A stretch of 48,498 bases of DNA, from assembly GCA_017399945.1 (NCBI GenBank), contig JAFQAQ010000016.1, positions 1 to 48,498 on the forward strand, given 5' to 3'. Below, one piece after another: positions 24,172 through 48,498 of the stretch. The notes beneath the pieces were generated by a model that had not been told where the DNA came from, ran no database searches, and saw nothing but the letters and a program-made list of their open reading frames with translations. The first letter of the stretch is position 1. Every line of letters begins with the position of its first letter. The stretch comes from Clostridia bacterium (GTDB taxonomy: Bacteria > Bacillota > Clostridia > Christensenellales > Borkfalkiaceae). The translations under genes were made by a program, and so were the position numbers.

Positions 24172-24208
24172 CCCATTTGATGGAATACAATTGGAGTATA
24201 AGATTATA

Positions 24209-28879: not shown

Positions 28880-28932
28880 GTCGTAACGCGCGTGTATTTA
28901 TACATTATATATAATACGCGTGCGTGTACGAC
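28880..28932 (+). promoter_or_regulatory. Intercistronic hairpin between binding protein and permease
   Basis: GTCGTAACGCGCGTGTATT (28880-28898) folds back on the arm ending GCGTGTACGAC (28932), giving an imperfect stem-loop of about 19 bp with G-U pairs. There is no T-run. Such structures after a binding-protein gene stabilise its mRNA 3' end and lower permease output, as in other ABC operons; here it would also bury the alternative GTG at 28924. Confidence 0.6.
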
Positions 28933-28953
28933 TTAAAAACTTTTGGTGAAAAA

Positions 28954-31033: not shown

Positions 31034-34000
31034 ATGTTGTTAAAATTAAAGAACAAATTAGTAGTTGTTCTAGCAATTATTGCATCTGCGCTCTTTTTAG
31101 CTGGCTCGATATTTCTGTTCTCAAATAGGGCAGGGGCAGAGCTCGGCTCGTTAGATAGCGCCACGATAGCTTCGTTGCTAGACAATTACTTGGTTGGCGA
31201 AAGACTAGTTGTTCCGCAGACTGCAAAAATCTCTGTTGGTAGCAACGAGTACGACGCAACCGAAGTGTATCTTTACACTGCAAGCGGAAACGCTTTGAAC
31301 GTGCAAGAATACGTATTTACTGGCGAAGGCGTATACAAATTAGTATACTCGGCAGTTACTCCCGAAGGAGAAGTTGTTACTGCTGAAAAATCCTTCACCG
31401 TTAGCAAGAAGATTTACGACGGCTCGCTAACCAAGGTTGAAAACGTATCTTTCCTTAAAACTATCTCCCAAAATATAGAATCTGAGAACAAAACTTCTGG
31501 TTTATCAGTTTCTGTTCCCGTGGACGATATGTTTAAATGGAATAACGTAATTGACTTAAAGGAAACCGGTCTTAATATTCCTTTCCTTTCTTTCTTGCCT
31601 TATCAATTTTCACCGGCTAACAAGGTTGACGGTGTTATTCAAGAGCAAGCAAGATTCATTTACGTTAGATTAACCGACGTTTACGACGCTAATAAATACG
31701 TTGATATAGAAGTAGAATACCTAATGGCTGGTAGAAACTATAACATTCCTAACCAAATGCCTAGTTTCCAAGCAGCCGCTGTAGGTCAATCTATGTCTTC
31801 GCTTACCACTGAATTAGGTGGAACGAAAGCAAACGGTAGAATTCTTACCTTTACTGAACCCGATTTGATGATTAACGGTTCTACCAGCTATAAATATTAT
31901 GCAAGCTATTCCGAACACCCAGGTAATCCTAGCGTAGGTGACGTTACGGAAAACGGTCAGTTAATAGATTTGTTCTATGACGTTGCTACTAACCAAGTTA
32001 GAGTATCCGAAGCAACTGCTGCAGGTGCTGTTGAAAAGGTTTTAGTTAACGACCTAGACGCAAAAACTCTTTATACCAATAACGCTTTCGAAGGCTTCAC
32101 CAACGGCGAAGTATACCTTTCCATTTTCTGTCAAAAATATGCGGACGTTAACGTAAACATGGAAATTGCTTCTATCGGTACTTTGTCTGGCGATGAACTT
32201 CATGATCCCTATTCCGTAGACGATAAAGCCCCCGTTATTGAACTTGACGTTTCCGAAGATCAAATTAAAAACGGTATCTTCGTTCCCATGGGACAAAGGG
32301 TAGACGTTATTGACGCTAGATTCTTAGATCCTAACCTTGCTTATTCTAACGTTTCAGTTAGTTATCAAGGTGCGCCTTATACTATCAACGGAAAGTCATT
32401 CCTTCCTTTATCTACGGGCGATTATCTAATTACTTATTATGCGAAAGACGCGTTTAATAACGAAAGTAAAGTTGAAATTACTTATAAGTCTATAGATTGT
32501 TCTGCGAACGGCAACAAACTTATCTCATACGATTTAGGCGAGGATAATATTTCGACCGTATACGCTGGCAAAGAATTTACTCTTCCTGAATATCAAGTTG
32601 TTTCTAACAATAAGTATATAGACGTTAAAATCTTTGCTTATTTCGACGGTGATTTATCTGACAAGATAGAAATCAATCCAGAGACTCGCAAATTATTCGT
32701 TGAAAACGTTGGCAAATACCACGTTGTATTCGAAATGTCCGACTTTATTGAAAGCGTAACCGCAGAGTACACCTTCAATTCGCAAGCGGGCAGTGATATT
32801 TCTTGGACTGACGTAGCGCTTCCTAAATACGTTATTAAGGGCGCTAAATATTCTTTCGATCCGGTATACGCAAACGTTTATACTAAAACTAGACCTTCTC
32901 AAGTAGAAGCTAAATACTTCATTAGTAAAGACGGTGGTTCATTTGAATCGGTTGCTAACTACGCAGACCTTCAAATTACTGCATCTAATACCGTACAATT
33001 TAAATACGTTTACGGCACCGAAGAAATCACTTCTAACGTGTTAGACGTCGTTGACGTTAACTTTACTCAAACCGCTCTATCCACTCCTTCCTACTTCGTA
33101 GGTAACGGTATGGTTTCAGAAGCATACGGCAGCACCGGTTTTGCTCTTGTTTCCGAAAAAGATACGGGCGTTGTTTCTGCTGATTTCGTTAACGTTTTAT
33201 CCTTATCAACTTTCTCGATAAACTTTAATATTCCAGAAACAATGAGAAACGTTGGCTACGTTAAGTTTATTATTACCGATTATTTAGATGCGTCTAACTC
33301 CTTAACCATTACTTATTCTCAACAAGGTTCTGGTTATTTAGTTGAACTTTCTAACGGTAGATCAACTTCCGCTAAGGCAGCTTTCTACGGTACGAACTTC
33401 GTTCTTTCGTTCAAGGCAAACTCCAACGAATTTAACGACCAAACCGCAGGTAGCGTTGGCTGGGACAACAACTTTAAGAGTGATAGAATTTTATTCTCCT
33501 TTGAATTAGGTGGCATGGTTGCTTCTGGAAACGAAGGCGTTACCAAAGCAGGTATCGTTATATCCAACATGCTTGGAACTCCTATGAATATGCAAAATCG
33601 TGATAACCAAGCACCTTTCGTTGGTTACGACACCACTTACATGGGTACCCAAGTTAAAAACGCAAAGGTAACTATTTCTGCGCTAGAAGGCTCCGACCTT
33701 TTCTCTCCTACCTATTATGGTAACGATGCGGCGCTATTAAGTGTTACCGACGTTGACAACAACCCAATCAAGACCGTTGACGGTTTAATTGCCGAAGATT
33801 TGGACGCAACTAGATCGTACGACTTTATTCTTTCAGAACTTGGCGAAGTTGTTGTAACTTATTCCTATAAAGACCAAAAGAACGCTAACAACGTTATTTA
33901 CGGTTCGTACTCAATTTACGTTGCCGACAACGTAAAACCGTCTATCGCAATCGCTGACGGATATAACGAATTAACCGTTGTTAAAGCGCAACTTGGTGAT

Positions 34001-34237
34001 CTTATCACTGCTAAGAATTTTACTTACAGTGATAACAACGACGAGAAAAAGGACCTTGTTGCATACGTTTACGTTATCGACCCCTTCTATCATATGTACG
34101 ATTTAATTGATAATGGTATTGAAATAGACGACATGAAGTTCGAATGTGAATACTGTGGCGTTTACACCGTACTCTATTACGTAGAAGACGTTTCCGGTAA
34201 CTTCATCACTGCAAGCTACAAGGTATTTGTACAATAA
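31034..34237 (+). CDS. Large secreted Ig-like/jelly-roll surface protein
   Basis: The 1067-residue protein has an N-terminal signal (KNKLVVVLAIIASALFLAGS, cleavage near RAGA-EL) and no lipobox, sortase motif or membrane anchor. The sequence is almost all beta-strand. Two regions (about residues 140-385 and 690-850) have a jelly-roll pattern, and several Ig-like segments lie around them ('DDKAPVIELDVSEDQIKNG', 'DYLITYYAKDAFNNESKVEI', 'GEVVVTYSYKDQKNANNVIY', 'CGVYTVLYYVEDVSGNFITA'). No catalytic motif was found. It may bind polysaccharide at the cell surface. Ribosome binding site AAGGAG. It is read with the transporter and the next lipoproteins. Confidence 0.75.
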   Translation: MLLKLKNKLVVVLAIIASALFLAGSIFLFSNRAGAELGSLDSATIASLLDNYLVGERLVVPQTAKISVGSNEYDATEVYLYTASGNALNVQEYVFTGEGVYKLVYSAVTPEGEVVTAEKSFTVSKKIYDGSLTKVENVSFLKTISQNIESENKTSGLSVSVPVDDMFKWNNVIDLKETGLNIPFLSFLPYQFSPANKVDGVIQEQARFIYVRLTDVYDANKYVDIEVEYLMAGRNYNIPNQMPSFQAAAVGQSMSSLTTELGGTKANGRILTFTEPDLMINGSTSYKYYASYSEHPGNPSVGDVTENGQLIDLFYDVATNQVRVSEATAAGAVEKVLVNDLDAKTLYTNNAFEGFTNGEVYLSIFCQKYADVNVNMEIASIGTLSGDELHDPYSVDDKAPVIELDVSEDQIKNGIFVPMGQRVDVIDARFLDPNLAYSNVSVSYQGAPYTINGKSFLPLSTGDYLITYYAKDAFNNESKVEITYKSIDCSANGNKLISYDLGEDNISTVYAGKEFTLPEYQVVSNNKYIDVKIFAYFDGDLSDKIEINPETRKLFVENVGKYHVVFEMSDFIESVTAEYTFNSQAGSDISWTDVALPKYVIKGAKYSFDPVYANVYTKTRPSQVEAKYFISKDGGSFESVANYADLQITASNTVQFKYVYGTEEITSNVLDVVDVNFTQTALSTPSYFVGNGMVSEAYGSTGFALVSEKDTGVVSADFVNVLSLSTFSINFNIPETMRNVGYVKFIITDYLDASNSLTITYSQQGSGYLVELSNGRSTSAKAAFYGTNFVLSFKANSNEFNDQTAGSVGWDNNFKSDRILFSFELGGMVASGNEGVTKAGIVISNMLGTPMNMQNRDNQAPFVGYDTTYMGTQVKNAKVTISALEGSDLFSPTYYGNDAALLSVTDVDNNPIKTVDGLIAEDLDATRSYDFILSELGEVVVTYSYKDQKNANNVIYGSYSIYVADNVKPSIAIADGYNELTVVKAQLGDLITAKNFTYSDNNDEKKDLVAYVYVIDPFYHMYDLIDNGIEIDDMKFECEYCGVYTVLYYVEDVSGNFITASYKVFVQ

Positions 34238-34249
34238 GGAGATATGAAT

Positions 34250-36475
34250 ATGAAAAAGTTATTAAAGTTTCTTAGTAAATCTCTTTGTTTAGTATTGTCA
34301 TTAATTATGTGTGTTGCAGTCGTTGGCTGTGACAAGGGTAACGAAGACACGGGCTCAAATGCTCCTGTTGAATTTATCAATACCGAAGATTACGTTAACA
34401 ACCCCGAAGATATGGGTTTAATTCAATTTGGTACTCATAAATATCTCGTATCCGAAACCGAAGATAAATGGCTTGTTAAAAACGGTGTAACCGAATACAA
34501 ATTGGTAGTTCAGGGTTCTACTGTTGAAGCTAACGATACCTATTATCGTTATGCTATTAACGAAATGGTTTATTTCTTCGAAATGGCTACTAACATTACC
34601 TTAGAGGTTGTTATTGATACCACTCTTCCTTTGGAAGATCAAGCACACAATCCAAACCAACATTATATTTCTTTGGATACTACCACGTTGTTCCAATCTA
34701 GTGGCATTACTAACACCGTAGATGAATTACAAATGTACGGTGGCAAAATCGTAACCAAAGATAACAATATCTATATCGTTGGTAATACCGATATCGGAAC
34801 TCTAAACGCAGTTTATACCTTCTTGGATTTAACGTTTAACTGGGAAGTTTACTCTGCAAACACTATCGTTATCGATAAAAACGTAAAAGACTTAAAGTTG
34901 TATAACTACAACGTTATCGATATTCCAGACGTTCCTTATCAACCCACCAGTTCATACGAACATTATTCTTGGGGTGAAGCACCTGACTATGGTGTAAAAC
35001 TTTACCACGCTACCGAAGATTCTAGAATGTATGGTACTCGTGTTAAAGCTTTCCAAGCTGCTAGTCTTCCTGCGGTAGAAATTCTTAAAGATAACCCTGA
35101 GTATATTCCTACTTCTACTGATCCAGAACAAATTGCTAAAAACGAAGCGTATATTAGAAAGTATGCCGATTCTAACGACCCAGAAGGCTATGCATTATAT
35201 AACGCTTTGTCTAAGCCGGGTGGACACAACTCCGTTCTCTTAGTTCCAGAAGAATTATGGGGACACAAGGCTAACTGGTATGGTGGCGTTCAACTTTGTT
35301 ATACTGCTCACGGCAATGAAGCTGATTTAGACGAAATTACTTCTCGTTTTGCAGATATGATTAAAATGCAACTTATCAGATTGCCCGCTGCAATTTATCC
35401 TTATAGCCGTTCGGTAGATATTACCATTACCGACGACCCCGGTATGTGTGGCTGTGATGAGTGTACGAGACAAAAGCAAGTTTATAAAGATTCTGGTCTT
35501 GTTGTTAAATACATGAACATCATTGCTGAAAAAGTTAAAAAGTGGATGGAATTACCAGGTAACGAACCTTATAGAAGAGACAACCTAGAAATCCGTCACT
35601 ATGCATACTTAGGTACCGAAGATCCGCCCGCAAAAATCGATCCTGAAACAGGTGAGTGGGTTGCTATCGACGAAACGGTTATGATGCATAAAAATACTTG
35701 TATTAAGTACGCTAACATTAACACCGACTTCCAACAAAGTCTTTTTGCTGAGGACAACGCTTGGGCGAGAGATATATTTGATGGTTGGGCAGCTGTTTCC
35801 GGTGGTAGAATTGGTTACTTTATGTATAACTATAACATAAATCACAACTACTTCTACGATGGTTTTGATCACTACGATACCAAGGGTATTAACTATTACC
35901 TTGCTGGTGGTAGATCTTATTACTACTCAGAAAATATACACGGTGCATCTCCAACGGAATTTGGTGGACTAATTAGCTATCTAAACGCAAAACTTTGCTA
36001 CAACTCTTTACTAGATTCTGGTAAGTTAATGCAAAAATGGTTTGACGCTTGTTATGGTCCTGCTTCGGGTATCATGATGGATTTACTTAACAGTATCAGA
36101 GCATTCAACCACAACGAAACGGTTAGAAACGATCTTTACAAGAGATTCTCTATCTATAACCAAGTTTATTTTAGATTCAATTGGAAACCCGTAGTATTAA
36201 AGGGCTGGATTGCTAAGGCAGACGAAGCACACGCGGCTATCGAACACTTAAAGCAAACCAACTACGATGAATGGTATAGAATTGCTTACAACATTGAACT
36301 TGAAGCATTTGATCCTATTCTACTTATGTTCAAACATAACAGTTCTTCTATGTCTGCGGAAGAATATAATTCTTATAAAGCACGTATCCTTTCCAACATT
36401 GCAACGTGGCCTGATTATTCAATGGTACACATTGTTAGTTCTGGATACGTTAAGACCTGGATTCAAACCATATAA
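34250..36475 (+). CDS. DUF4838-family lipoprotein, glycosidase-like
   Basis: The 741-residue lipoprotein (lipobox VVGC near residue 23) has an N-terminal domain of the type seen in alpha-glucuronidase and GH20 enzymes ('IVTKDNNIYIVGNTDIGTLN' then 'AVYTFLDLTFNWEVYS') followed by a DUF4838-like catalytic-type barrel with the signature cysteine cluster 'DDPGMCGCDECTRQ' (about residues 396-409). DUF4838 proteins are glycosidase-related but poorly characterised. The ATG at 34244 is too close to AAGGAG (34237-34241); 34250 has the right spacing and opens at MKKLLKF. Anchored on the outer face, it could cleave or sense an extracellular glycan bound by the surface proteins. Confidence 0.8.
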   Translation: MKKLLKFLSKSLCLVLSLIMCVAVVGCDKGNEDTGSNAPVEFINTEDYVNNPEDMGLIQFGTHKYLVSETEDKWLVKNGVTEYKLVVQGSTVEANDTYYRYAINEMVYFFEMATNITLEVVIDTTLPLEDQAHNPNQHYISLDTTTLFQSSGITNTVDELQMYGGKIVTKDNNIYIVGNTDIGTLNAVYTFLDLTFNWEVYSANTIVIDKNVKDLKLYNYNVIDIPDVPYQPTSSYEHYSWGEAPDYGVKLYHATEDSRMYGTRVKAFQAASLPAVEILKDNPEYIPTSTDPEQIAKNEAYIRKYADSNDPEGYALYNALSKPGGHNSVLLVPEELWGHKANWYGGVQLCYTAHGNEADLDEITSRFADMIKMQLIRLPAAIYPYSRSVDITITDDPGMCGCDECTRQKQVYKDSGLVVKYMNIIAEKVKKWMELPGNEPYRRDNLEIRHYAYLGTEDPPAKIDPETGEWVAIDETVMMHKNTCIKYANINTDFQQSLFAEDNAWARDIFDGWAAVSGGRIGYFMYNYNINHNYFYDGFDHYDTKGINYYLAGGRSYYYSENIHGASPTEFGGLISYLNAKLCYNSLLDSGKLMQKWFDACYGPASGIMMDLLNSIRAFNHNETVRNDLYKRFSIYNQVYFRFNWKPVVLKGWIAKADEAHAAIEHLKQTNYDEWYRIAYNIELEAFDPILLMFKHNSSSMSAEEYNSYKARILSNIATWPDYSMVHIVSSGYVKTWIQTI

Positions 36476-36494: not shown

Positions 36495-39400
36495 ATGAAA
36501 AGTGTATTAAGAAAAATATCTTTTGTTTTATTAGCTATCGTTGCTGCGTTCTCCTTTAGTTTCCTTGTTGCAACCTCCACGGGTTGCAACAAAGGTTCAA
36601 GTAGTTCCGGCAGTGGAAATACTGGTTTACCTTCAATTCAGTTAATAAAATTTGAACAAACAGACGTTAGCATGATAGTCGGCGACGAGAAATACGTTGT
36701 TGCTGTTGCTAACGATACTTCAAACGAAGTAAAAATTACCTATAAGTCCTCTGATGAAAGTGTTCTTTCAGTTGACCAATTTGGTAAATTTACCGCAAAT
36801 AAAAAGGGTACTGCAGTAGTAACTGCTTCATATAGCTACTATTCAGCAACCTGTAACGTAACCGTTGGACACGGTAATTTCGTGCCTGTTCTTAATATCG
36901 ACAACGTAACGGATAACACCATTTCCGTTCCTAAGGGCACTGATTACGAGCTTAACCCTTACGTTATATTCAACGGCAAAAAGTTTACTAACGCAACTTA
37001 TAACTTTAAATACTCTGGCAACAAGATTAGCGTTAATAACTTAGGCAAGATTACTGCTAACGAAAAGGGCGAAGTTAAACTTACCGTTACCGCTTCTTGG
37101 GACGGATTTAACGGTATAAGTTCTTTAAGCAAGACTTTAACCGTAAAAGTTACTAACTTTATCTCTATTTTCGTTAACGAAGGTAACGGCGTTGAAACCC
37201 TTTATAACATGTCTCTTCCCACTTTAACCGGTTCTACTGCTGCAACCGTACCTTTCGTTGTTGGTGCTATCGACAACCAAGGTCAAGTTAACGCAAGCAA
37301 TATTCAGGTTGAAGTAGTTGAAGGATCAGACGTTGTATCCTATGCTGACGGAAAGTTATCTTCTTTAGGTTTAGGCGACGCTAAAATTAAAATTACCGTA
37401 TCCGACTTCGAAAACGAAATTCACGTTAAATACGTAGACGTTTCCGTTGAAAGAGCAATGGGTGACTATTCTCAAAACGGCGAATACATCGTTGTTGATA
37501 TGGATACCTTAACGGGTGACGGCATCAATCTTTCTGAAATTTTTGGTGAAGACGTTATCCTTACCGATGCATATCTTGGCAAAACCGAATTAGAAATTGA
37601 TAACAACAAGATAGTTGGTGGTGTAGAAGGTTTTGCATTCGGTACTCCCGCTCCCGTAGTTTTAACTCTTTACACTGCTGATCGTGGTTACAACGTTAAA
37701 GTTCTTCCATACGTTTATAAAAACGCTCAAACTCACGCAGAAAGAGTGGAATTCTCTTCTTACGACGGCGTGCTTCCTTTGGAAACCATTTTTGGTAACG
37801 ACGTAACCGTTAAAGAAGCATATCTTAAAACTGAGGACGGCGAAAGAAAATTAAATATCAGTGAAGACGGCAAAGGCATTCTTGGTGTTGATAGTGGCGC
37901 TAAACCCACTGAATTTACCATTGCAGTTGCTACCGATACTGAAATGAAATACGTTGACGTAACTGCTTATACTCTTATAATCGACGAAATGAGCGACTTT
38001 GATTATTTCGCTGTTAAACCAGGTACTTGGTCTTGGACTCCTAATAAGTACACCATTTACTCTGGTTTAGATTGGAATGGCTATTACGTATTAGCAAACG
38101 ATATCGACGCTTCTGAATATGCTTACTCTATGCACTCAATTCAAACTCTTCCCAACAACGATCCCGGTAAAGAAGGTGAATTCGTTACCGGTCGTGGTTA
38201 TTACTATCAATATTGGGGAAGCCTAAATTGGGGTTGGGCAAGATTTGGTATGATGCATGGTAACTTCTGGGAAAGTCAAGGTCCAGAAAAAATGGGCCTT
38301 ACGAACAAAGGTTTCCAAGGCACGTTCGACGGACGTGGACATACCATTTTCAACTATAATGCTAATATAGACGGTTTGTTTGGACCAATTAACGGTGGTG
38401 TAATCAAAAACGTAGCATTCAAAAATTCGGCTGTTCCTAGCGATGGTATGCTAGGCGGTGTCGCATTTAACGGCGCTATTTTCGAAAACATTTACGTTGA
38501 AACTAACCCAGATTATAATATTTCAAGATTATGGAGTGGTTCTTGCGTTGTAACAAGTGCTTCCAACACTTGTACTTGGAAAAACGTCGTTGTATACGTT
38601 ACCAGTAAAGGTAAGACTCCTGTTGGTCCTAACTATGGTATATTAGCAGGTACCTCTGGTTCTTCGTATAGTTCTTCTAACTCTGGTGTTTTTATTATCG
38701 CGGATAACCCGTTAGCAGCTTCGTATAATGCTGGCTCAATTACTTCCGTTACCTTTGAAGCTGAATACGTAGACGGTGTTAAACAAGAGGGTGGTAATAC
38801 GGCAAGCGGTATTCGTCGTTATAACTCCTTAGATGCAGTTGCTGCGGATAAAGAAGCAAATGCTGCGGCTTTAGCTAAGTTTAATCCTGATTTTTGGACT
38901 ATTCTTGGCGACGCTATTCCTGTATTCACAACTTGTCTTTCTGCTGACGAGTTGGAAATTTACATTGGTGACGAACTAGCTGACGGCGCAAATGCTCGTG
39001 TATTCCAAAATACAAGCAATTCAGTTAACGTAAGATACCAAGGCTTAGAAGTTAAAAAGGTTGACAGTGTAGAAATTATCTCTGGTGACACTGTCGTAGA
39101 AACCGTTGACAATTGTACTTTAAGTGGCTTAACCACTGGTAAAGCTACTATTAAAGTAACTTACTCCTTAAACGGCGTAACTCTTTCTAGAGAAATCGTT
39201 ATCAACTCCGTTCCAGAAGTTAAACCTTATGTAAACGTTTTAGAATTCTCTGCTAGACAAGGTTTATTTATGGACGATGAGTTCGACGTGGTTTCCTTAG
39301 AAGATATCTTTGGAAAAGAAGTTGAAATCTTCGCTGCTTACGATAAGGATAACAATCCTCTTACCATAGACAACGAAAACGGCTTAATCTTAGATCTTAT

Positions 39401-42400
39401 AACCGATGCTAAGGAAATTACTCACACCACTATCGATCTATATACTGATACTGAAGCGTATAGAGTTACCGTTAACGCATACGCAAGCGTTATCAAGGAA
39501 GCCGAAGATTTAGAAATATTCAAGATTACCGTTCCATGGAGCTTCCCACAAAAGGATGAAAACGGCAACGTTGTTACTTGGTCATATAACTTCGCTGACG
39601 GTGATTTCTGCTTCGACGGCTATTACTTATTAGCCAACGATATTGATGCTACTGGTTACGTTCACAACGTAATTAACGGTACTGCTCTTGCTGGTTCTAT
39701 CAATAGTGAACGTGCATGGCAAAACGAAATCTTCTCAACCGGTTTAGGTTCTGAAGCTTATCCTACGCACGGCTTTATCGGTACTTTTGACGGTAACGGT
39801 CACTTAATTAGTAATTTAACTACTAGATACGGCGGTTTATTCGGAATTATCAACAAGGGTACTATTAAGAATATCGGTATAGTTAACCATACTTCTCCAG
39901 ATAGTTATTCTGGTATCTTTGCTGACCAAGCAATCCGCAACGCAACCTTTGATAACGTTTATATTAGCAGTGAAATCAATTACACTTCTAGCGAAACTTA
40001 CTTAGGTATGCTTGTAAACGACCCATCTTCCGTTATCAACGTTTCTAACGTGGTTATTGAAGACTACAACACCTATACCGAAAGTAGTGCAGTTGGTTCT
40101 ATGTTCGGCTACTTCGCAAGAAGTAACGGAAACACCAATCCCTACATTAAGACTTACGGCAACTTCCAAGACGGTGCATTTAAGGACGTATACGTTATTT
40201 CTAAAAACGCTCTCTTCCAATCTGGTTGGTCAAAGAACAACCCCGTTTACACTGCAACGTGGGACGGCGAATACGTTGACGGCGTTAAAACTGAAAGCAC
40301 TTATACTAGAACTCCTAGCAAAGATCTTGGCGAAGTAACCTTCGACGTTGGTATTCCAGGCGTAAGACGTTATACCTCATCTGAAAAGATGATGGCAGAC
40401 GTTGCAAACGTTAATACCAGTGGATTTAACACTGAATATTGGAATATCGTTAACGGCTTACCTAAGTTTAAGGCAATTTCTATGTCTAACTACATTAAGG
40501 TATACTTAGGTGATCAAGCTGCTGAAGAAGGCTTAGTTACTATTAATAATGATACTTCTTATGAAGTTAACCTCAGAATCGACGGTATTATATACGACCA
40601 AGCAGACTTTACCGTAACTCTCACTAGTGGTAATTCCATCAGTGTAGATGGTAAAACGGTAACTTCTGGAAAAACTGCTTCTTCTGCATTATCTGTTCTT
40701 ACCATTACCGATAAGAACTTAGGCACGTTCGTGGTTAGTGTAGACGTAGTTGCACCTACCACCGAATACGGTGAAGAATTAGTATATTCTGCTAGAACCG
40801 GCGAATTCTTCAAGGGTGATACCCCAATTGAAATCTCTGACATCTTTGGTAAAGACGTAACTTTAATTAAAGCTTACGACAAAGATAACAATTTACTTTC
40901 TGTTGATAACAACGTAATTTCAGGAGTTGCAACTTCTAATATTGCTATCTTATCAGACGAATTAACTCTCGTTGCTGAAAGTGAATCTATAAAAGTTAAA
41001 GTAAAAGCAGTTGCTCTCGTAATTGACGAAGCAGAAGACCTATATTGCTTCCAAGCCGATTCTAACGCAATAGTTAATACCTCTACTTGGACTATCGACT
41101 TTGCTAGTGCAGACGCTCTAAAAGTAGAAGGTTACTACATGCTCGTTAAGAACATTGACGCAAGTGTTCTTGGAACTTATAGTTACTCTAACGGATATAC
41201 CGTAAACCTTGACTCCTTTAACGGATTCCCAAGAATGGATTATCTTGCTGCAGGTGGTGGTTGGCATTCTATGGGTGTTGGTAAACACGGCTTTATCGGT
41301 ACTTTAGATGGTAATGGATACACCATTTCTAACCTAACTACTGATCCTTGGGGTGGTTTACTTGGTGCTATTTATAGTGGTACCGTTAAGAACATTGCTT
41401 TCGTAAACTGTGGTACTACTAACGGTAGTAATGGTGCTATTGCTCTCGGTGCTGCCGCTAACGCTAAGTTCGAAAACGTTTACGTTTCTACTCCCGTTGG
41501 CGTTGCAGGTTCTAATTCTGCACCTCTAGTTGCAAGTTACGGTCACAAGACCACCTTCAAGAACGTTGTAATCGTTGATAATACTTCTCTTAACATTACT
41601 TCGAGAACAGTTGACGTAAATTACGGTTCTTTAACTCACGACGCTAGAAGATGGAGTGACAGAGACGTCCCGATAGCTCCTGCAACTTTCTATGATGCAA
41701 ACGTATCTAATTTATACGTAATCTCTGAAAAGCCTTTCGCAGGTACCGTTGCTAAGGGAACTACCGTTCTCACTACTATGATGGACGCTAGATACGTTGA
41801 CGGTCAATTAGTTGACGATTTATTGTTCACCGGTACTTATGGTACGGGCGGAACTGCGTTTGAGGAAAATGCAGACCTAACCGTTGCAAATTCTAAGCGT
41901 TATACTTCTGCGGCTAACATGCTTGCAGACGTTGACAATAACGATTTCACCGCGTTTGATACTTCAATTTGGGAAGTTGTTAACGGCGTTCCTAGATTTA
42001 AGTCTATAGATGCAAGCAACTTCGTAAAGGTTGCTGTTAACGGCGTTGAAATCGGTGGTAACTACAAAGCGTTGCTTGGCGACGAAATTACTTTATCTCT
42101 CGTACTAGACGGTGAAGCTTATGACCAAGCGTTTACCATTTCTGCAGTAGATACTTCTCTCGTTACTATCGATGGAACTAAGATTACTGCAAGCAACGTA
42201 ACCATTGGTTCTACCGTAATTAACGTAACCGTAGGCACTCAAGTAATTCCTTTCATTCTTGAAATTTGCGAACCTACTATTGTTGCCGATGGCGAAGAAA
42301 TTATTGGTTCAATCACTCTCCGTCTTGCAAAACAAGCTGAAATCGACTTCGTATATAACGGAAGCTCCGTTCAAGGAACGGTTACCGTACAAAGCGATTC

Positions 42401-45400
42401 ATCAGTAATTAGCATTAACGGAACTACTATCGTAGCTAGCACGTATGAAACGGGTAAGGCTGAAGTAACTGCAACTATTGTAACTGCTAACTATACAGTT
42501 ACTAAGACCTTCAGCGTTATTGTAAACGCTCCCGTAGTTCTAGCAGACGGCGTAGAAATCACTGATATCAATCTTGATATGAGTGAAGAAACAACTATTA
42601 CTTTATATTATGACAATACGGAAATTACCGACGGCATTACAATCGCTATTTCAAGCGAAATCGCAACTGCTTCTGGTAACGTAATTACCGCAAGCGCTAC
42701 AAACGGTGGTTTTGCTGAAGTAACTATTACTTATGACGGCTTGTCAATTACCTTAGGTCTTTCCGTTCTAGCATCTGACGTTGAAGACGTGCTTGTTAAC
42801 CCATACTTCTCGGCTGTTGACGGCGTATTCTTTAACGAATCACTAACCGAAGAAACTACCGTTGAAGACCTACTCGGCACTAGCGACCCAGTTATCGCCG
42901 CTGTTGCTGAAGACGGCACCAACCTAACTGTTTCTAACGGTAAGATTTTAGGTGTAGAAACTGTAAACACCGGTATCACTGATACCATCATTACGTTATA
43001 TACCGCAAATAAGGGTTATAACGTAAGCATTAAGGCTTATACCTTAATTATCGACCAAGCTTCTGATATGAGCTACTTTACCGTAAAAGACGTTGAAAAC
43101 TATGGTAAAGGTCATACTACCGGTACTGCAGGTAACTATAAATACATCGACTTTGCTAAGGGTGACGTTGAATGGGACGGCTACTATATCATGATTAACG
43201 ATATAGACTTCTTAGAAGAAGGTTATTCTCATAAGTTTGACGTTAATAATGTAGGCGTAAACTTTGGTTCTCACGGCTTTGCTGCATCTAACAAGACGAC
43301 CTTAGGTGGATTGTTAGGCAAGAAAGGTTTAATGGGTACCTTTGACGGTAACGGCTACACTATGAACAACGTAACCGTAGCGAAATCAGGTTTCTTTGGT
43401 GTAATTTCCGGTACTGTAAAGAACGTTAGAATGACTCTAGTTCAAAAATCTGGTCAAACTTCAAACCTCAACCCACAAGGCGACTCCTACTATGGTAAGT
43501 ATGATAGCGAGGGTATTCTTTGTGCATACGTTCTTGACGGTGGCTTAATTTCCGACGTTTATATTGACATCGTAAGTGGTTCTATGAACAGTGGCTATGG
43601 TACGTACATTCTTGCTAGTGAAGTTTCTGCTAACGCTACCTTAAGGAATATGATTATTAACTATTCCGATAACGGTTCGCAAGCCGACCTTACGGCTGCA
43701 GGTGGTCCTGCGTTCTATGACCGTGGTGCAACTATCGAAAACGTTTACTACATTTCACCATATCACATGAACCTTAATTACTATCAAGCTGAAGAAAAGA
43801 AATATTACGGCGTAGACGTAAACGGAACCACTAACAACCTTCAACTTATTACTCAAGACGCTAGATACGTAGACGGCGTAGATATGGGTGAAGGTAGCGT
43901 AGTTACTAAGACCGTATATCAGACCTATTTCCAAAATATTAGTTTTAATCTTGACAACGACGTTGTTACCTTAAAAGACGGAACTAGATTTACCTCTTAT
44001 GAATATACGACCATTAACGGTATCAAACGTTATTCTAACTATGCTAAGATGACTGCAGACTATGCTGCAAACGCAGAAGCATTCAAAAACTTTAACAAAG
44101 ACGTGTGGGAAATCGTTAACGGCGTACCCAAATTTGCAAAATCGCTCGGGGACAGCTACAAGCTGTTCCTCGGCAATGCAGAATTCGAAGGCGAATTAAT
44201 TGAAACTTCGATTAACAAGTCCTTTGATTTATCCGTAAGGGTAGATGGTTCTGCGTTAGAAGGTGCAACCTTAGTTGAAAACGGTGATACCAAACTTCTC
44301 ACCATCAACGGCACTACTGCGACTGCAAACGTTAAGGGTGAAACATCCGTAACTATTACTTATAAGAACTTTACTAAAACTATTAACGTTAAAGTATATC
44401 CCGAAACCGTAGAAAGTCTAAACACCTACAAGTTCTCAGCAGTAGACGGTTTGTTCTTCGATGGGGAAACCGAAGTTAAGTTAAACGATATCTTCGATCT
44501 TTCTGAAACTTCTATCGTTTCAGTATTAGATGCAGAAGGCAACGCGTTAACTTACGATGCTGAAAATGATTTAATCAAGGGCGTTTCTTCAAGCAAAGAC
44601 GGTTACGTGGACGGGTCAATTACCGTATATACTGCCGACGATAAAGCTTATAAAGTAAACGTTCAAATCGCAACTTTAATTATCAACGAAGTATCTGATT
44701 TAGAATACTTCAAAGCAAATGGTAAAGCAGACTATCCTAGAGACGGTAATGGTGCCGTAACCGCGTGGAACGTTGTGTTTGATAACGCCGAAACTAATAT
44801 GGTTTGGGACGGTTACTACGTATTGGCTAACGATATCGATGCAACCGGTTATACTCACGACTTACGTAACGGTTACACCGTAAACGCTAGTGCTTTCTTA
44901 CCTTCTCGTATGGATTACCTTGCAAACTCTGGTTGGTACCTTAATGCTCCAATGCACGGTTTAATGGGTACGTTCGATGGTCAAGGACATACCATTTCTA
45001 ACTTAACTACTATTAGTGGAACTGGTTTATTTGCAGTCGTTAACGGCGCAACCATTAAAAACGTTGGTTTCGTTAACTGTAATACTCAAAACTCTGCTGG
45101 TGGCTTCTTGGCATACGGCGCTATTGCAGGTACTAAGTTACACGACGTATACGTATCTACGGCATCCGTAACACCCTCAAGCGATTGGGCTCCTATCTTT
45201 ACCGGTATTGGTCATAAACAATTCGGTTGGAGCAACGTTGTTATTATCGATAACACTACCGACACGTATACTAACGGTAGATCTGCAAGCTCGTTTACCG
45301 ACGATATCGTAAGACATAGTGCAACTAGCCCAGCAACTTTCGGTCATACTAATATCAATATTCAACCATACAAGGGTGTATATATCGTTTCTAACAAACC

Positions 45401-48400
45401 TTTACAAGGTGAAGGAAACGGCACGTCTTACGTAGCAGGCTTAGAAGCAAGATACGTTGACGGTCAAGTTGCAACCTTAGTAGCAGGTGCTGGAATTGCA
45501 AACGTAGCAGAAGGTTCTGACCTTACCGTAGAAGGAATTTATCGTTACACCACGTACGCAAAATTCGTTGCTGACGCAGCAAATCGCGATTTCAGTGGAT
45601 TTAGCGACACTATGTGGACCATGATTGGTGGCGTACCTTCCTTCAACTCGGCAGTAAGCATTTCAAACGCACAAGTATATTTAGGTAATAGCCTTGTTGA
45701 CGAAAACGGCGCAATGCTACAAATTGATTCAAGTGCAGACGTAACCTTCCGTGTTAACGGCTATGCAATTGACGGTCAAGTAACCCTACAAGTAGTAGAA
45801 GGTACTTCCGTAACCGTAAGTGGGGCAACCGTAACGGCAGGAAATGTTGTTGGTGACACCGTTATTAGTGCAACCTTTGAAGGCGTAACCAAACAATTCA
45901 CCGTATCAGTGGTAAATCCCGTAGAAACTCTTGATATCGATCCAATAACCTTCTCGGCTATGGACGGCGTAATCGATTATGAAGAAGTTCTCGGAACTGC
46001 AAACCCAACAATATTAAAAGCAACCGATAAGGACGGCAACGTCCTTACGGTTGGTGCAAACAACCAAATTCTTGGTTTAGCAACTTCTGGCGACGCTGTA
46101 ACTGAAACTCAAATCGTTCTTTACATGTCCGATCGTACCGTTGCTATTCCAGTAAACGCATACAGCCTAATCATTGACGAAGTATCAGACTTTACTACCT
46201 ATACTACGTCAAACGGCAATGGATATTATTTACTTGCAAAAGATTTAGACTTTACCGATTACACCATCGAATACCAAGCAGATTGTGCTTTACTAGTAGA
46301 TGGTTTATCTGGTACCTTTGATGGAAACGGTTATACTATTTCTAACGTAACCTTAACTTCAAACTCCGTATTCCCCAAAGTAAACGCTGGTATCGTTAAA
46401 AATCTTGCTGTAACTAATCTTAAACACTCTGTTGAAACTGGTGGGTCTCTCAACGGTGGCAACAACGCACTTTTCGTTGGTGTTTTATCTAACGGTGCGA
46501 CCGTTACCGACTGTTCGATTGATATCACCCAAAAGAAATTCAACTCTGCATGGAACGGTAAATGGGTAGTATTCTCAGCAACCGAAGATTCCAAGATTTC
46601 TAACTCCGTAGTATATTGGGACGTATACTATGACAATACTGGTTCTCAACTTACTTATGGCTCCGGTACTGGTGCAGGTATGTTCGTTGATAACATAAAA
46701 TTAGAAAACGTTATACTTGTATCTCCATTTGAATTAAACTTTGGTGGTTACCAAGGTGCAACTATCAGAACGACTGAAACTGCTTCTGAAAAACTAGTTA
46801 AGCCAGTTACTCACGATGCGGCTTACGTTGATGGTGTTGTACCCAGTACTACAACTTCCGTTTACTACGATCCTTGGAACATGCAAAATGGATATAAATA
46901 CGATTTGGATAAATATCCGGAAATGCAAAGAAAATTAGGCGAAGAATGGGGCACTGCTGAATATACTATTACCTTAATTCAAGGTATCAAACGTTATAGT
47001 TCAGTTGACACCTTGATTAGCGATGCCGCTAACAACACCACCACGTTTGCAAACTTCAATCGTGACGTATGGGAAATTGTAAGTGGCGTACCTATGTTCG
47101 TAAAAGGCCTTGAAAACAGCTACAAGTTGTTCTATGGCAATGCAGAATTTGAGGACGAACTAATTGAAACTTCGGTAAACAAATCCTTTGACTTAACGGT
47201 TAGAGTAGACGGTGCAGCTATTTCAGGCGCTACCTTAGTTGAAAATGGCGAGACCAAACTTCTTACCATCAACGGCACTACTGCAACTGCAAACGCAAAG
47301 GGTGAAACTTCGGTAACTATTACTTACAGAAACTTCACCAAGACCATTAACGTTAAAGTATATCCCGAAGAAATAGTAGAAGAAAAGACCTACAAATTCT
47401 CAGCAGAAGACGGCTTGTTCTTCGATGGCTCTGACGAAGTTAAGTTAAACCAAATCTTCGATCTTTCTGAAACCACTATCGTTTCAGTAGTAGATGCTGA
47501 AGGTAACGCATTAACTTACGACGCAGAAAACGATTTAATCAAAGGCGTTTCTTCAAACAAAGACGGCTACGTGGACGGTTCAATTACCGTATATACTGCC
47601 GACAAATCGTATAAAGTAAACGTTCAAATCGCAACGTTAATTATCAACGAAGTATCCGACCTTGCTTACTTTAAGGCAAGCGCTAACTCCGCTTCTTATG
47701 GTAAACAATGTTTCGGTGTAGGCGGTTCTGCTGATAACGACTTGTGTGATTGTATCTATGCAGGTGCATCTTGTCCTGAGTGTGGTCACTCTGGTGCTGC
47801 AAACGAAGCATGGACTTACTATTGGTCAGCATGGTTTGATTCTGCCGACGATATGAAATGGCAAGGCTACTACGTGTTAGCAAACAACATCGATGCAACT
47901 GGTTATACTCACGACTTGCGTAACGGATTCACCGTAGGTACCGAAGCGTTCGTACCTTCTAGATACGACTACTTGGCAAACACCGGTTGGTATAATAACG
48001 GATACGTTCACGGATTTGGCGGTACCTTCGATGGTCAAGGCTACACAATTTCTAACTTACAAACTATTGCTAGCTACGGCTTGTTTGGTATAATTAACGG
48101 TGGTACCGTACAAAACGTAGGTTTTGTTAACTGTAACACCACTAGTAGCTCCAAGGGCTTCTTAGCACAAGCAGCTACTCAGTACTCTGTATTTAAGGAC
48201 GTATACGTATCTACTCCTGCAATCACTCCACAATCTCAATACACTCCATTAGTAACCGGTATTGGTCACTTTGGCTGGAACTGGGAAAGAGTAGTTATTA
48301 TTGATAACACTACGTTAGAAGTTGCAAATGGCAGATACTACGGCTCTATCACTGCCGACGCAGAAAGACACGTAAACAACAAACCTGCAACCTTCGGTTA

Positions 48401-48498
48401 TTCTTTAGAGAACGTTCAACCCTTCAAAGGCACCTACGTTGTATCTAACAAACCTATGAGTGCTCAGGGTAACGGAACTAGCCTAGTTGCAAGCTTAG
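36495..48498 (+). CDS. Giant modular lipoprotein, truncated at the window edge
   Basis: The frame is open from ATG 36495 (AAAGGAGG upstream) to the edge: at least 4,001 residues, with no stop. I checked the frame at five points. After a lipoprotein signal (MKSVLRKISFVLLAIVAAFS, lipobox STGC near residue 32) come Ig-like (Big_2) repeats, e.g. 'YKSSDESVLSVDQFGKFTAN', and then at least seven modules. Each has an 'FSAxDGxFF...DIFGKDV...AYDKDN' domain, then 'GYYVLANDIDATGY', a GLUG-type block 'GTFDGNGHTISNLTT...GLFG', and a 'YVDGxxxxxxxIKRYT...WEIVNGVPKF' ending. No glycosidase motif was recognised. Likely role: an adhesin or glycan-binding surface fibre of this locus. The 3' end and anchor are missing. 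Confidence 0.9.
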   Translation, partial: MKSVLRKISFVLLAIVAAFSFSFLVATSTGCNKGSSSSGSGNTGLPSIQLIKFEQTDVSMIVGDEKYVVAVANDTSNEVKITYKSSDESVLSVDQFGKFTANKKGTAVVTASYSYYSATCNVTVGHGNFVPVLNIDNVTDNTISVPKGTDYELNPYVIFNGKKFTNATYNFKYSGNKISVNNLGKITANEKGEVKLTVTASWDGFNGISSLSKTLTVKVTNFISIFVNEGNGVETLYNMSLPTLTGSTAATVPFVVGAIDNQGQVNASNIQVEVVEGSDVVSYADGKLSSLGLGDAKIKITVSDFENEIHVKYVDVSVERAMGDYSQNGEYIVVDMDTLTGDGINLSEIFGEDVILTDAYLGKTELEIDNNKIVGGVEGFAFGTPAPVVLTLYTADRGYNVKVLPYVYKNAQTHAERVEFSSYDGVLPLETIFGNDVTVKEAYLKTEDGERKLNISEDGKGILGVDSGAKPTEFTIAVATDTEMKYVDVTAYTLIIDEMSDFDYFAVKPGTWSWTPNKYTIYSGLDWNGYYVLANDIDASEYAYSMHSIQTLPNNDPGKEGEFVTGRGYYYQYWGSLNWGWARFGMMHGNFWESQGPEKMGLTNKGFQGTFDGRGHTIFNYNANIDGLFGPINGGVIKNVAFKNSAVPSDGMLGGVAFNGAIFENIYVETNPDYNISRLWSGSCVVTSASNTCTWKNVVVYVTSKGKTPVGPNYGILAGTSGSSYSSSNSGVFIIADNPLAASYNAGSITSVTFEAEYVDGVKQEGGNTASGIRRYNSLDAVAADKEANAAALAKFNPDFWTILGDAIPVFTTCLSADELEIYIGDELADGANARVFQNTSNSVNVRYQGLEVKKVDSVEIISGDTVVETVDNCTLSGLTTGKATIKVTYSLNGVTLSREIVINSVPEVKPYVNVLEFSARQGLFMDDEFDVVSLEDIFGKEVEIFAAYDKDNNPLTIDNENGLILDLITDAKEITHTTIDLYTDTEAYRVTVNAYASVIKEAEDLEIFKITVPWSFPQKDENGNVVTWSYNFADGDFCFDGYYLLANDIDATGYVHNVINGTALAGSINSERAWQNEIFSTGLGSEAYPTHGFIGTFDGNGHLISNLTTRYGGLFGIINKGTIKNIGIVNHTSPDSYSGIFADQAIRNATFDNVYISSEINYTSSETYLGMLVNDPSSVINVSNVVIEDYNTYTESSAVGSMFGYFARSNGNTNPYIKTYGNFQDGAFKDVYVISKNALFQSGWSKNNPVYTATWDGEYVDGVKTESTYTRTPSKDLGEVTFDVGIPGVRRYTSSEKMMADVANVNTSGFNTEYWNIVNGLPKFKAISMSNYIKVYLGDQAAEEGLVTINNDTSYEVNLRIDGIIYDQADFTVTLTSGNSISVDGKTVTSGKTASSALSVLTITDKNLGTFVVSVDVVAPTTEYGEELVYSARTGEFFKGDTPIEISDIFGKDVTLIKAYDKDNNLLSVDNNVISGVATSNIAILSDELTLVAESESIKVKVKAVALVIDEAEDLYCFQADSNAIVNTSTWTIDFASADALKVEGYYMLVKNIDASVLGTYSYSNGYTVNLDSFNGFPRMDYLAAGGGWHSMGVGKHGFIGTLDGNGYTISNLTTDPWGGLLGAIYSGTVKNIAFVNCGTTNGSNGAIALGAAANAKFENVYVSTPVGVAGSNSAPLVASYGHKTTFKNVVIVDNTSLNITSRTVDVNYGSLTHDARRWSDRDVPIAPATFYDANVSNLYVISEKPFAGTVAKGTTVLTTMMDARYVDGQLVDDLLFTGTYGTGGTAFEENADLTVANSKRYTSAANMLADVDNNDFTAFDTSIWEVVNGVPRFKSIDASNFVKVAVNGVEIGGNYKALLGDEITLSLVLDGEAYDQAFTISAVDTSLVTIDGTKITASNVTIGSTVINVTVGTQVIPFILEICEPTIVADGEEIIGSITLRLAKQAEIDFVYNGSSVQGTVTVQSDSSVISINGTTIVASTYETGKAEVTATIVTANYTVTKTFSVIVNAPVVLADGVEITDINLDMSEETTITLYYDNTEITDGITIAISSEIATASGNVITASATNGGFAEVTITYDGLSITLGLSVLASDVEDVLVNPYFSAVDGVFFNESLTEETTVEDLLGTSDPVIAAVAEDGTNLTVSNGKILGVETVNTGITDTIITLYTANKGYNVSIKAYTLIIDQASDMSYFTVKDVENYGKGHTTGTAGNYKYIDFAKGDVEWDGYYIMINDIDFLEEGYSHKFDVNNVGVNFGSHGFAASNKTTLGGLLGKKGLMGTFDGNGYTMNNVTVAKSGFFGVISGTVKNVRMTLVQKSGQTSNLNPQGDSYYGKYDSEGILCAYVLDGGLISDVYIDIVSGSMNSGYGTYILASEVSANATLRNMIINYSDNGSQADLTAAGGPAFYDRGATIENVYYISPYHMNLNYYQAEEKKYYGVDVNGTTNNLQLITQDARYVDGVDMGEGSVVTKTVYQTYFQNISFNLDNDVVTLKDGTRFTSYEYTTINGIKRYSNYAKMTADYAANAEAFKNFNKDVWEIVNGVPKFAKSLGDSYKLFLGNAEFEGELIETSINKSFDLSVRVDGSALEGATLVENGDTKLLTINGTTATANVKGETSVTITYKNFTKTINVKVYPETVESLNTYKFSAVDGLFFDGETEVKLNDIFDLSETSIVSVLDAEGNALTYDAENDLIKGVSSSKDGYVDGSITVYTADDKAYKVNVQIATLIINEVSDLEYFKANGKADYPRDGNGAVTAWNVVFDNAETNMVWDGYYVLANDIDATGYTHDLRNGYTVNASAFLPSRMDYLANSGWYLNAPMHGLMGTFDGQGHTISNLTTISGTGLFAVVNGATIKNVGFVNCNTQNSAGGFLAYGAIAGTKLHDVYVSTASVTPSSDWAPIFTGIGHKQFGWSNVVIIDNTTDTYTNGRSASSFTDDIVRHSATSPATFGHTNINIQPYKGVYIVSNKPLQGEGNGTSYVAGLEARYVDGQVATLVAGAGIANVAEGSDLTVEGIYRYTTYAKFVADAANRDFSGFSDTMWTMIGGVPSFNSAVSISNAQVYLGNSLVDENGAMLQIDSSADVTFRVNGYAIDGQVTLQVVEGTSVTVSGATVTAGNVVGDTVISATFEGVTKQFTVSVVNPVETLDIDPITFSAMDGVIDYEEVLGTANPTILKATDKDGNVLTVGANNQILGLATSGDAVTETQIVLYMSDRTVAIPVNAYSLIIDEVSDFTTYTTSNGNGYYLLAKDLDFTDYTIEYQADCALLVDGLSGTFDGNGYTISNVTLTSNSVFPKVNAGIVKNLAVTNLKHSVETGGSLNGGNNALFVGVLSNGATVTDCSIDITQKKFNSAWNGKWVVFSATEDSKISNSVVYWDVYYDNTGSQLTYGSGTGAGMFVDNIKLENVILVSPFELNFGGYQGATIRTTETASEKLVKPVTHDAAYVDGVVPSTTTSVYYDPWNMQNGYKYDLDKYPEMQRKLGEEWGTAEYTITLIQGIKRYSSVDTLISDAANNTTTFANFNRDVWEIVSGVPMFVKGLENSYKLFYGNAEFEDELIETSVNKSFDLTVRVDGAAISGATLVENGETKLLTINGTTATANAKGETSVTITYRNFTKTINVKVYPEEIVEEKTYKFSAEDGLFFDGSDEVKLNQIFDLSETTIVSVVDAEGNALTYDAENDLIKGVSSNKDGYVDGSITVYTADKSYKVNVQIATLIINEVSDLAYFKASANSASYGKQCFGVGGSADNDLCDCIYAGASCPECGHSGAANEAWTYYWSAWFDSADDMKWQGYYVLANNIDATGYTHDLRNGFTVGTEAFVPSRYDYLANTGWYNNGYVHGFGGTFDGQGYTISNLQTIASYGLFGIINGGTVQNVGFVNCNTTSSSKGFLAQAATQYSVFKDVYVSTPAITPQSQYTPLVTGIGHFGWNWERVVIIDNTTLEVANGRYYGSITADAERHVNNKPATFGYSLENVQPFKGTYVVSNKPMSAQGNGTSLVASL
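37747..39236 (+). repeat. Giant lipoprotein module 1
   Basis: Approximate bounds. It opens with a divergent 'VEFSSYDGVLPLETIFGNDV' domain, followed by 'WNGYYVLANDIDASEY' (from about 38073) and 'GTFDGRGHTIFNYNANIDGL'. The loop between the two strands is long and aromatic-rich ('GRGYYYQYWGSLNWGWARFG'). Confidence 0.75.
39237..40775 (+). repeat. Giant lipoprotein module 2
   Basis: Approximate bounds. Contains 'LEFSARQGLFMDDEFDVVSL', 'IFGKEVEIFAAYDKDNNPLT', 'FDGYYLLANDIDATGY' (about 39608) and 'HGFIGTFDGNGHLISNLTT' (about 39769), closing with 'GVRRYTSSEKM' and 'EYWNIVNGLPKF'. Confidence 0.8.
40776..42030 (+). repeat. Giant lipoprotein module 3
   Basis: Approximate bounds. Contains 'LVYSARTGEFFKGDTPIEIS', 'IFGKDVTLIKAYDKDNNLLS', 'VEGYYMLVKNIDASVLG', 'HGFIGTLDGNGYTISNLTT' (about 41287) and the closing 'SKRYTSAANM' and 'SIWEVVNGVPRF'. 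Confidence 0.8.
42031..42790 (+). repeat. Extra Big_2-like Ig segment between modules 3 and 4
   Basis: About 250 codons of short beta-rich repeats with the 'TISAVDTSLVTIDGTKITAS', 'VQSDSSVISINGTTIVAS' and 'AISSEIATASGNVITASATN' pattern, typical of Ig-like group 2 domains. It lengthens the spacing between modules 3 and 4 to about 2.0 kb against about 1.5 kb elsewhere. Confidence 0.7.
42791..44425 (+). repeat. Giant lipoprotein module 4
   Basis: Approximate bounds. Contains 'PYFSAVDGVFFNESLTEETT', 'WDGYYIMINDIDFLEEGY' (about 43171) and 'KGLMGTFDGNGYTMNNVTV', closing with 'GIKRYSNYAKM' and 'DVWEIVNGVPKF' before an Ig-like spacer that opens the first copy of the duplication. Confidence 0.8.
44090..45450 (+). 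repeat. Internal duplication, copy A (pairs with 47054-48498)
   Basis: From 'NKDVWEIVNGVPKF' on, both DNA and protein match copy B at an offset of 2,964 nt, e.g. ACGGCACTACTGC occurs in both Ig-like spacers and 'NAEFEGELIETS' matches 'NAEFEDELIETS'. After the B-specific insertion the offset is about 3,055 nt. Confidence 0.75.
44426..45942 (+). repeat. Giant lipoprotein module 5
   Basis: Approximate bounds. Contains 'YKFSAVDGLFFDGETEVKLN', 'WDGYYVLANDIDATGYTHDL' (about 44805), 'HGLMGTFDGQGHTISNLTT' and 'NVVIIDNTT', then 'YIVSNKPLQGEGNGTSYVAG'. It is nearly duplicated as module 7. Confidence 0.85.
45943..47387 (+). repeat. Giant lipoprotein module 6
   Basis: Approximate bounds. A shorter, more divergent unit: 'ITFSAMDGVIDYEEVLGTAN', 'GNGYYLLAKDLDFTDY', 'DGLSGTFDGNGYTISNVTL' (about 46300) and 'GIKRYSSVDTL', 'DVWEIVSGVPMF' at the end. 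Confidence 0.75.
47054..48498 (+). repeat. Internal duplication, copy B (edge-truncated)
   Basis: This copy follows copy A through the Ig-like spacer, FSA domain and GLUG-type block. It differs by a cysteine-rich insertion of about 30 codons and by scattered substitutions. The copy may continue beyond the window. Confidence 0.75.
47388..48498 (+). repeat. Giant lipoprotein module 7 (cut by the window edge)
   Basis: Approximate start. Contains 'YKFSAEDGLFFDGSDEVKLN', a cysteine-rich insertion (47690-47830), 'WQGYYVLANNIDATGYTHDL' and 'HGFGGTFDGQGYTISNLQT'. It runs into the window end within the 'GNGTSLVASL' segment that matches module 5. Confidence 0.85.

Follow-up and report, generated by a model that had tools for sequence, protein, structure and literature searches.

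A giant beta-helix lipoprotein as a putative surface glycan receptor in a sugar-uptake locus of a Clostridia bacterium

A giant lipoprotein gene behind sugar-uptake genes

The stretch of DNA analysed here (hereafter the window) comprises all 48,498 bases of contig C13 in a 29-contig draft genome of a Clostridia bacterium. Its right-hand end is occupied by a single uninterrupted frame that begins with ATG just behind an AGGAGG motif and runs for 4,001 codons to the window edge, which is also the contig end, without meeting a stop. Upstream lie genes for two permeases of the BPD_transp_1 family, solute-binding-protein-like lipoproteins, a regulator, an unnamed extracellular protein that we call P1067 and a member of the DUF4838 family:

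24191..24580, forward: AraC-family regulator
24640..26478, forward: solute-binding-protein-like lipoprotein 1 (weak likeness to sugar-binding NgcE/CPR_0540, far below cut-off; no Pfam match)
26985..28859, forward: solute-binding-protein-like lipoprotein 2 (detected by profile search with relatives of binding protein 1; without a Pfam match)
28924..29952, forward: ABC sugar permease (UgpA/MalF-like)
29968..30924, forward: ABC sugar permease (MalG/UgpE-like)
31034..34237, forward: P1067, conserved extracellular protein without a name, part of the cassette
34244..36475, forward: DUF4838 (GH163-like) lipoprotein-like gene directly upstream of the giant (66 bits against a cut-off of 26.6)
36495..48497, forward: giant lipoprotein gene, 5′ part (4,001 codons here; the rest on C10:1-1947, locus L044; 4,609 in total)
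36495..36587, forward: signal peptide with lipobox-like STGC, Cys31 (sequence and pattern match)
36648..36827, forward: N-terminal Big_2-like Ig domain, below the Pfam cut-off (Pfam scan)
37515..37718, forward: additional FSA segment ahead of module 1 (profile search)
37740..38939, forward: module 1 (FSA segment 37740-38000, GLUG-type helix, closing segment)
39228..40481, forward: module 2
40767..42011, forward: module 3
42012..42785, forward: three consecutive Ig-like linkers between modules 3 and 4, where other neighbouring modules have one between them (split by eye)
42792..44147, forward: module 4
44415..45656, forward: module 5
45933..47111, forward: module 6
47379..48494, forward: module 7, cut by the contig end (module 8 is on C10)
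48378..48498, forward: stretch common to the end of C13 and the start of C10, exact, 121 bases

The initial annotation had described an open frame reaching the window edge with a lipoprotein signal and a size above 4,000 residues. Both descriptions hold, and the second can be extended. The final 121 bases of C13 equal the opening 121 of contig C10, exactly and in frame, and a whole-genome search found this stretch at these two places only; we infer that it is the assembler's usual leftover between neighbouring contigs. Read across the join, the gene encodes a protein of 4,609 residues with eight modules, a mass of 495 kDa and a pI of 4.4, which terminates on its eighth closing segment with a stop codon at C10:1945-1947. 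Its N-terminus fits a lipobox-like signal peptide with cysteine, as expected of a lipoprotein, and the same lipobox pattern fits 36 of the 47 proteins scored (the window's own included and two genes counted twice).

Eight modules in a fixed order

Each module is composed, in fixed order, of an FSA segment, a GYYVLANDIDA strand, a GTFDGNGYTISN block and a closing RYT/W..VNGVPKF segment. The arrangement given in the initial annotation, seven modules in the same order every 1.4–2.0 kb (starts as listed above), was confirmed, and module 7 alone lacks its end within the window. An eighth module on C10 was matched at E 1.2e-65 by a profile of the seven, module 8 not being among the profile rows, and the 300 bases preceding modules 5 and 7 (44087-44386 and 47051-47350) are 79% identical; because of these two results, the repetition exceeds chance. 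The Ig-like segments of the initial annotation stood in part: Big_2 stays below its cut-off in the giant (19.7 versus 22.8 bits) and passes it in 7 of 8 related proteins scanned. Modules 7 (window 47709-47783) and 8 (L044) carry CxxC-rich inserts, which by eye resemble small zinc-ribbon loops.

A break within a gene of repeated modules, in a draft of 29 contigs, is what one would also see if paralogous GLUG genes had been falsely joined into a giant. We regard such an artefact as very improbable. The modules share 29–66% protein identity with module 5, which also makes a collapse of modules unlikely, the frame stays open over 12 kb, and a related genome, G016, independently holds frames of 3,321, 2,435, 1,697 and 1,625 codons built of the same modules (some cut by contig ends).

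A known helix class and its ending

The middle of the module is predicted to be a right-handed beta-helix of the GLUG/M26 type. A 58-row helix profile matched the solved structure 3n6z (E 1.8e-12) and the IgA1-protease beta-helices 6xja, 6xjb and 7jgj (5e-9), and among the 58 aligned members 23 have a Pfam Peptidase_M26_N match at E 0.01 and 10 a Glug match at E≤0.01 (best 1.7e-12). Module 5 alone reaches 22.3 bits against the Pfam cut-off of 27.7 in the M26-type helix test, Glug (PF07581) is unmatched in the 4,001-residue frame at E≤1 and in the seven modules at E≤10, and a seven-row module profile found nothing meaningful in the PDB. The helix would thus share its sequence class, including the GTFDGNGYTISN block, with GLUG motif proteins (PF07581) and the N-terminal beta-helix of M26 IgA1 proteases (PF05342), and the W..GxPxL-type ending seen in GLUG proteins recurs in the giant. 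In contrast to these proteins, the giant lacks both the HExxH metal site and the LPxTG sortase anchor motif anywhere in its 4,609 residues, and has the helix eight times over, each copy behind an FSA segment and with Ig-like linkers.

The closing segment had been put forward as an undescribed domain working as a unit with the FSA segment, a proposal that the comparison with other GLUG proteins did not bear out. Among distinct helix ends, a loose W...GxPx(L/F)-type motif comes after 24 of 47 where the protein has FSA, against 2.3 in shuffles, and after 31 of 155 where a GLUG protein lacks FSA, against 7.2 expected from shuffles; by eye, some of the 31 are not closing segments. The motif is present in 127 of 2,000 random windows of other ORFs. 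Endings without FSA occur, for example, in records titled Bacteroidales, Phycisphaerales, Balneolia and Candidatus Gastranaerophilales. Since the motif exceeds shuffles in GLUG proteins both with and without FSA, the closing segment reads as the normal end of the GLUG-type domain, and we rejected it as a domain of its own.

The FSA segment

The FSA segment, approximately 90 residues long, fared otherwise. As the initial annotation had supposed, it appears to be an undescribed domain, with no convincing match among families of Pfam, NCBIfam or the PDB. Searches with 42 members gave scattered single-member matches to 21 Pfam families (best E 0.0086) and 11 NCBIfam families (best 0.0087), none convincing, and a 42-row profile found nothing below E 0.23 in the PDB. 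When the seven modules were scanned against Pfam and NCBIfam, scattered weak matches likewise left the FSA segment not convincingly covered. An apparent likeness to the S-layer protein SlpX (PDB 7qfk; E 0.023 with an eight-row profile) vanished with the 42-row profile, and we put it down to chance.

An origin of FSA as a degenerate copy of the Ig-like linkers is not supported by profile comparison, in which hhalign gave a probability of 4.2% over 11 columns when FSA was set against the linkers (Big_2 Ig clan test). The two weak off-target matches of the FSA profile, in loci L261 and L183, both fall on Ig-like domains, that in L261 (E 8.9e-5) being a chance match, so a remote kinship with such domains is conceivable.

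As the initial annotation expected, FSA goes with GLUG-type helices in other proteins as well. After removal of repeats, so that distinct genes are counted, 63 of 68 FSA copies are followed within 250 residues by a GLUG-type helix, four are cut off by the end of a stretch and one is the chance match; in loci chosen by the FSA profile alone the corresponding numbers are 42, 5 and 1 of 48. In G016, too, the first module is preceded by a second FSA copy in tandem, as in the giant.

The 42-row profile matched 11 of 44 genus genomes and 47 of 301 in the family sample, the latter spread over 9 of 18 genera. In the order sample it matched 5 of 396, three belonging to this family and two being marginal cases from elsewhere, and in the phylum sample 1 of 398, the window's own, which is counted throughout. 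One copy comes from a record titled Bacilli (L061). On these counts the segment appears nearly restricted to one bacterial family, and this restriction together with its position suggests that FSA may serve the helix as an adaptor or N-cap. FSA is family-restricted and the helix, together with its ending, occurs widely, so the two do not form the 'pair' of the initial annotation; what stands of that interpretation is an unnamed FSA segment that precedes GLUG helices.

A conserved gene cassette

Comparing the neighbours in the window with fetched loci, we recognised a conserved gene order: binding protein, two permeases, P1067, DUF4838 (GH163-like) and a GLUG lipoprotein, the giant occupying the last slot. 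Of the 28 distinct FSA-type genes that have room for it (the window's included), 24 have DUF4838 immediately upstream, compared with 4 of 448 other ORFs and 11 of 68 GLUG ORFs without FSA. These counts were made with a home-made DUF4838 profile of 18 sequences, built from these loci, which detects more than Pfam's. With the Pfam model, DUF4838 lies within 5 kb upstream of only 24 of the 64 helix clusters drawn from lists for the genus, and a helix cluster lies downstream of 27 of 124 DUF4838 pieces. Numerous GLUG proteins and DUF4838 genes thus occur without the other, which counts against the cassette reading.

As the home-made DUF4838 and P1067 profiles were partly built from tested loci, a test anchored on P1067 is less circular. 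P1067 has approximately 1,000 residues, and one of eight homologues scanned exceeds a Pfam cut-off (Bact_surface_Ig-like). In a survey that scored at most two candidates per genome, near-full-length P1067 was found in 16 of 367 order genomes (the window's own included) from three families (f1, f18 and f32), and among 368 genomes of the phylum sample in the window's own only, the other 31 matching genomes giving short matches. Outside the window, P1067 has strong matches (E≤5.9e-65) at 22 places, of which 18 are covered by seventeen stretches; three of the stretches (L253, L262 and L263) overlap loci seen earlier. DUF4838 follows P1067 in all 17. Permeases precede P1067 in 15, the exceptions being L269, which has no room, and L253, where a second P1067–DUF4838–GLUG set without permeases comes after the first. 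A GLUG-helix ORF comes next after DUF4838 in 12 of the 16 stretches with room (L267 has none) and is missing from that position in the other four, L256, L261, L264 and L265. The GLUG genes of the f18 and f32 stretches have no FSA match, and therefore the slot extends beyond proteins with the FSA adaptor.

In L261, a 233-residue Ig-only lipoprotein-like ORF without a helix (L261:7046-7745) sits behind DUF4838; the slot can thus be filled by another gene type, or the GLUG gene there can be broken. Genome G002 has eight DUF4838 matches and no module match, from which the enzyme family is more widespread than the GLUG lipoprotein.

Repeat surface proteins of giant size are often adhesins, and 57 of the 68 GLUG ORFs without FSA have no DUF4838 directly upstream and so are often found apart from cassettes. 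The giant might accordingly bind host mucosa or neighbouring bacteria with its repeated helices, its position behind uptake genes reflecting co-regulation only. The 24 of 28 FSA-type genes directly behind DUF4838 argue against this, as does the fact that many FSA-type proteins are short, with one or two modules and poor reach, and we consider an adhesin unlikely.

Two further gene types were observed around the slot. GLUG genes without a lipobox and with a different N-terminus (Sec-type by eye) occur as the second and third in L263, in L045 at 10703, as the second in L049 and in L050, and may encode a second, secreted cassette component. Immediately after the giant, C10 carries a 231-residue Cys-rich lipoprotein-like gene (L044:2105-2800) without a Pfam match, and a homologue of its product (8e-30) also follows the giants of G016 (L045).

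Module number across relatives

In relatives, the same slot is occupied by one-module (approximately 650–710 amino acids) and two-module (approximately 1,250–1,390 amino acids) lipoproteins; giants were found here and in G016. In a tree of modules, module 1 groups with the first modules of G016, modules 5 and 7 of the giant are sisters, and seven modules of G016 fall into a separate group (100/99 in each case). From this tree, the giants here and in G016 appear to have had a common start followed by largely separate expansion. Weak GLUG-type matches also lie in two open frames (12,526 and 6,378 codons) on contigs C29 and C28 of G051, a genome from another family of the same order.

These numbers bear on two other readings. 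The nearest solved relatives of the helix are 3n6z and the IgA1-protease beta-helices, of which the pneumococcal one is described in part of PMC7695701 as a gating domain, and an excerpt of PMC9637739 has beta-helices widely used as scaffolds; with the enzyme gene adjoining that of the giant, its helices could by analogy position or cover the DUF4838 enzyme and bind no glycans. Against such a scaffold or gate, which seems to us improbable, the giant is a separate polypeptide in which HExxH is absent, and module number varies from one to eight while one or two DUF4838 genes stay constant. An acidic (pI 4.4), very long protein could also be a structural surface coat or biofilm fibre with no specific ligand. 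One-module relatives in the same slot and the tie to a sugar-uptake cassette make this quite improbable, and for the 'fibre' of the initial annotation we found nothing in support.

A candidate glycan-capture system

How large glycans are held at the cell surface by Gram-positive gut bacteria lacking SusD is a standing question. The MalG/UgpA-like permeases, AraC regulators and DUF4838 protein beside the giant point to sugar uptake, and the neighbours further upstream include mannonate-dehydratase-like, SMP-30 and SIS proteins and a protein at 17724 with a weak match to a xylanase, 1nof (family GH30). The reading that we favour, with somewhat better than an even chance of being right, is that the giant is a membrane-anchored surface glycan receptor with eight modules in a Gram-positive polysaccharide-utilisation locus; module order, helix family, anchor signal and the gene order with its conservation are read from the sequence, and binding would follow from the context. 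Glycan binding by the modules is plausible, backed by gene context, and the protein probably catches sugar chains at many points. Its eight working units would be the beta-helices, each entered through an FSA adaptor and spaced by Ig-like linkers. Outside the cell, they would bind glycans that are polymeric or attached to protein and keep them close to the DUF4838 enzyme, with which the giant would cooperate, and the products would be imported by the binding protein and permeases. Repetition of the module would add reach and multivalency.

Passages of PMC5320581 define Gram-positive polysaccharide-utilisation loci (gpPULs) as bringing together a polysaccharide-degrading enzyme, a carbohydrate transport system and a transcriptional regulator. 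The window locus likewise has carbohydrate transport (the two ABC permeases), a regulator (AraC) and, in its DUF4838 family match, a candidate degrading enzyme; in contrast to the gpPULs of those passages, it has two additions in set positions, P1067 and a GLUG beta-helix lipoprotein. The same passages assign glycan binding in Roseburia, as likely, to carbohydrate-binding modules of enzymes and to transporter parts; a beta-helix lipoprotein devoted to binding would vary this scheme. Pfam recognised no carbohydrate-binding module in the giant, and a Pfam scan at E≤1 no match to SusD. In Bacteroidota, SusD-type and other surface glycan-binding lipoproteins capture glycans; the likeness of the giant to them lies in its proposed job only, surface capture beside an enzyme and importer, since SusD belongs to a fold class different from the beta-helix and its loci have a TonB transporter where the window cassette has ABC permeases.

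The DUF4838 match would suggest a GH163-type endo-beta-N-acetylglucosaminidase, although the window's protein found no convincing solved relative and matched no GH163 structure. Downstream of the giant, a Gfo/Idh protein (L044:2707-4155) has a GH109_C match of 163 bits and is a possible alpha-N-acetylgalactosaminidase. GH109 enzymes are easily mistaken for oxidoreductases (PMC5320581, in part). Partial texts also list a Polaribacter DUF4838 protein as GH163 (PMC9870897) and describe one GH163 example that cuts the antennae of complex N-glycans (PMC10154615). According to record titles, relatives come from the colon, caecum, rectum or faeces of animals including sheep, deer, horse and yak. Because of the GH163-like gene upstream, the GH109-like gene downstream and these gut sources, we lean, with low confidence, to N-acetylated host-type glycans as the ligand.

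More broadly, and tentatively, as we would put the chance at somewhat under even, the six-part cassette may be an unnamed Gram-positive glycan-capture system, with the GLUG beta-helix lipoprotein as dedicated surface receptor and functional counterpart of SusD, P1067 as an unnamed partner, and receptor length tuned by module duplication, here to a 4,609-residue tether with eight sites. Judged by titles and abstract openings alone, none of the papers listed in literature searches, a scope with most subscription papers and bioRxiv preprints outside it, describes the cassette. If the proposal is true, the receptor has a defined gene slot beside a named enzyme family and a transporter, and natural versions with one, two and eight modules permit a direct test of the effect of module number. 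FSA and P1067 offer two undescribed, testable protein families.

Elsewhere in the window, a gene at 6973-8535 encodes a TIR-domain protein (TIR_2 at 2.4e-26; CAP12/Pycsar TIR at 2.7e-5, just below cut-off) with membrane segments recognised by eye.
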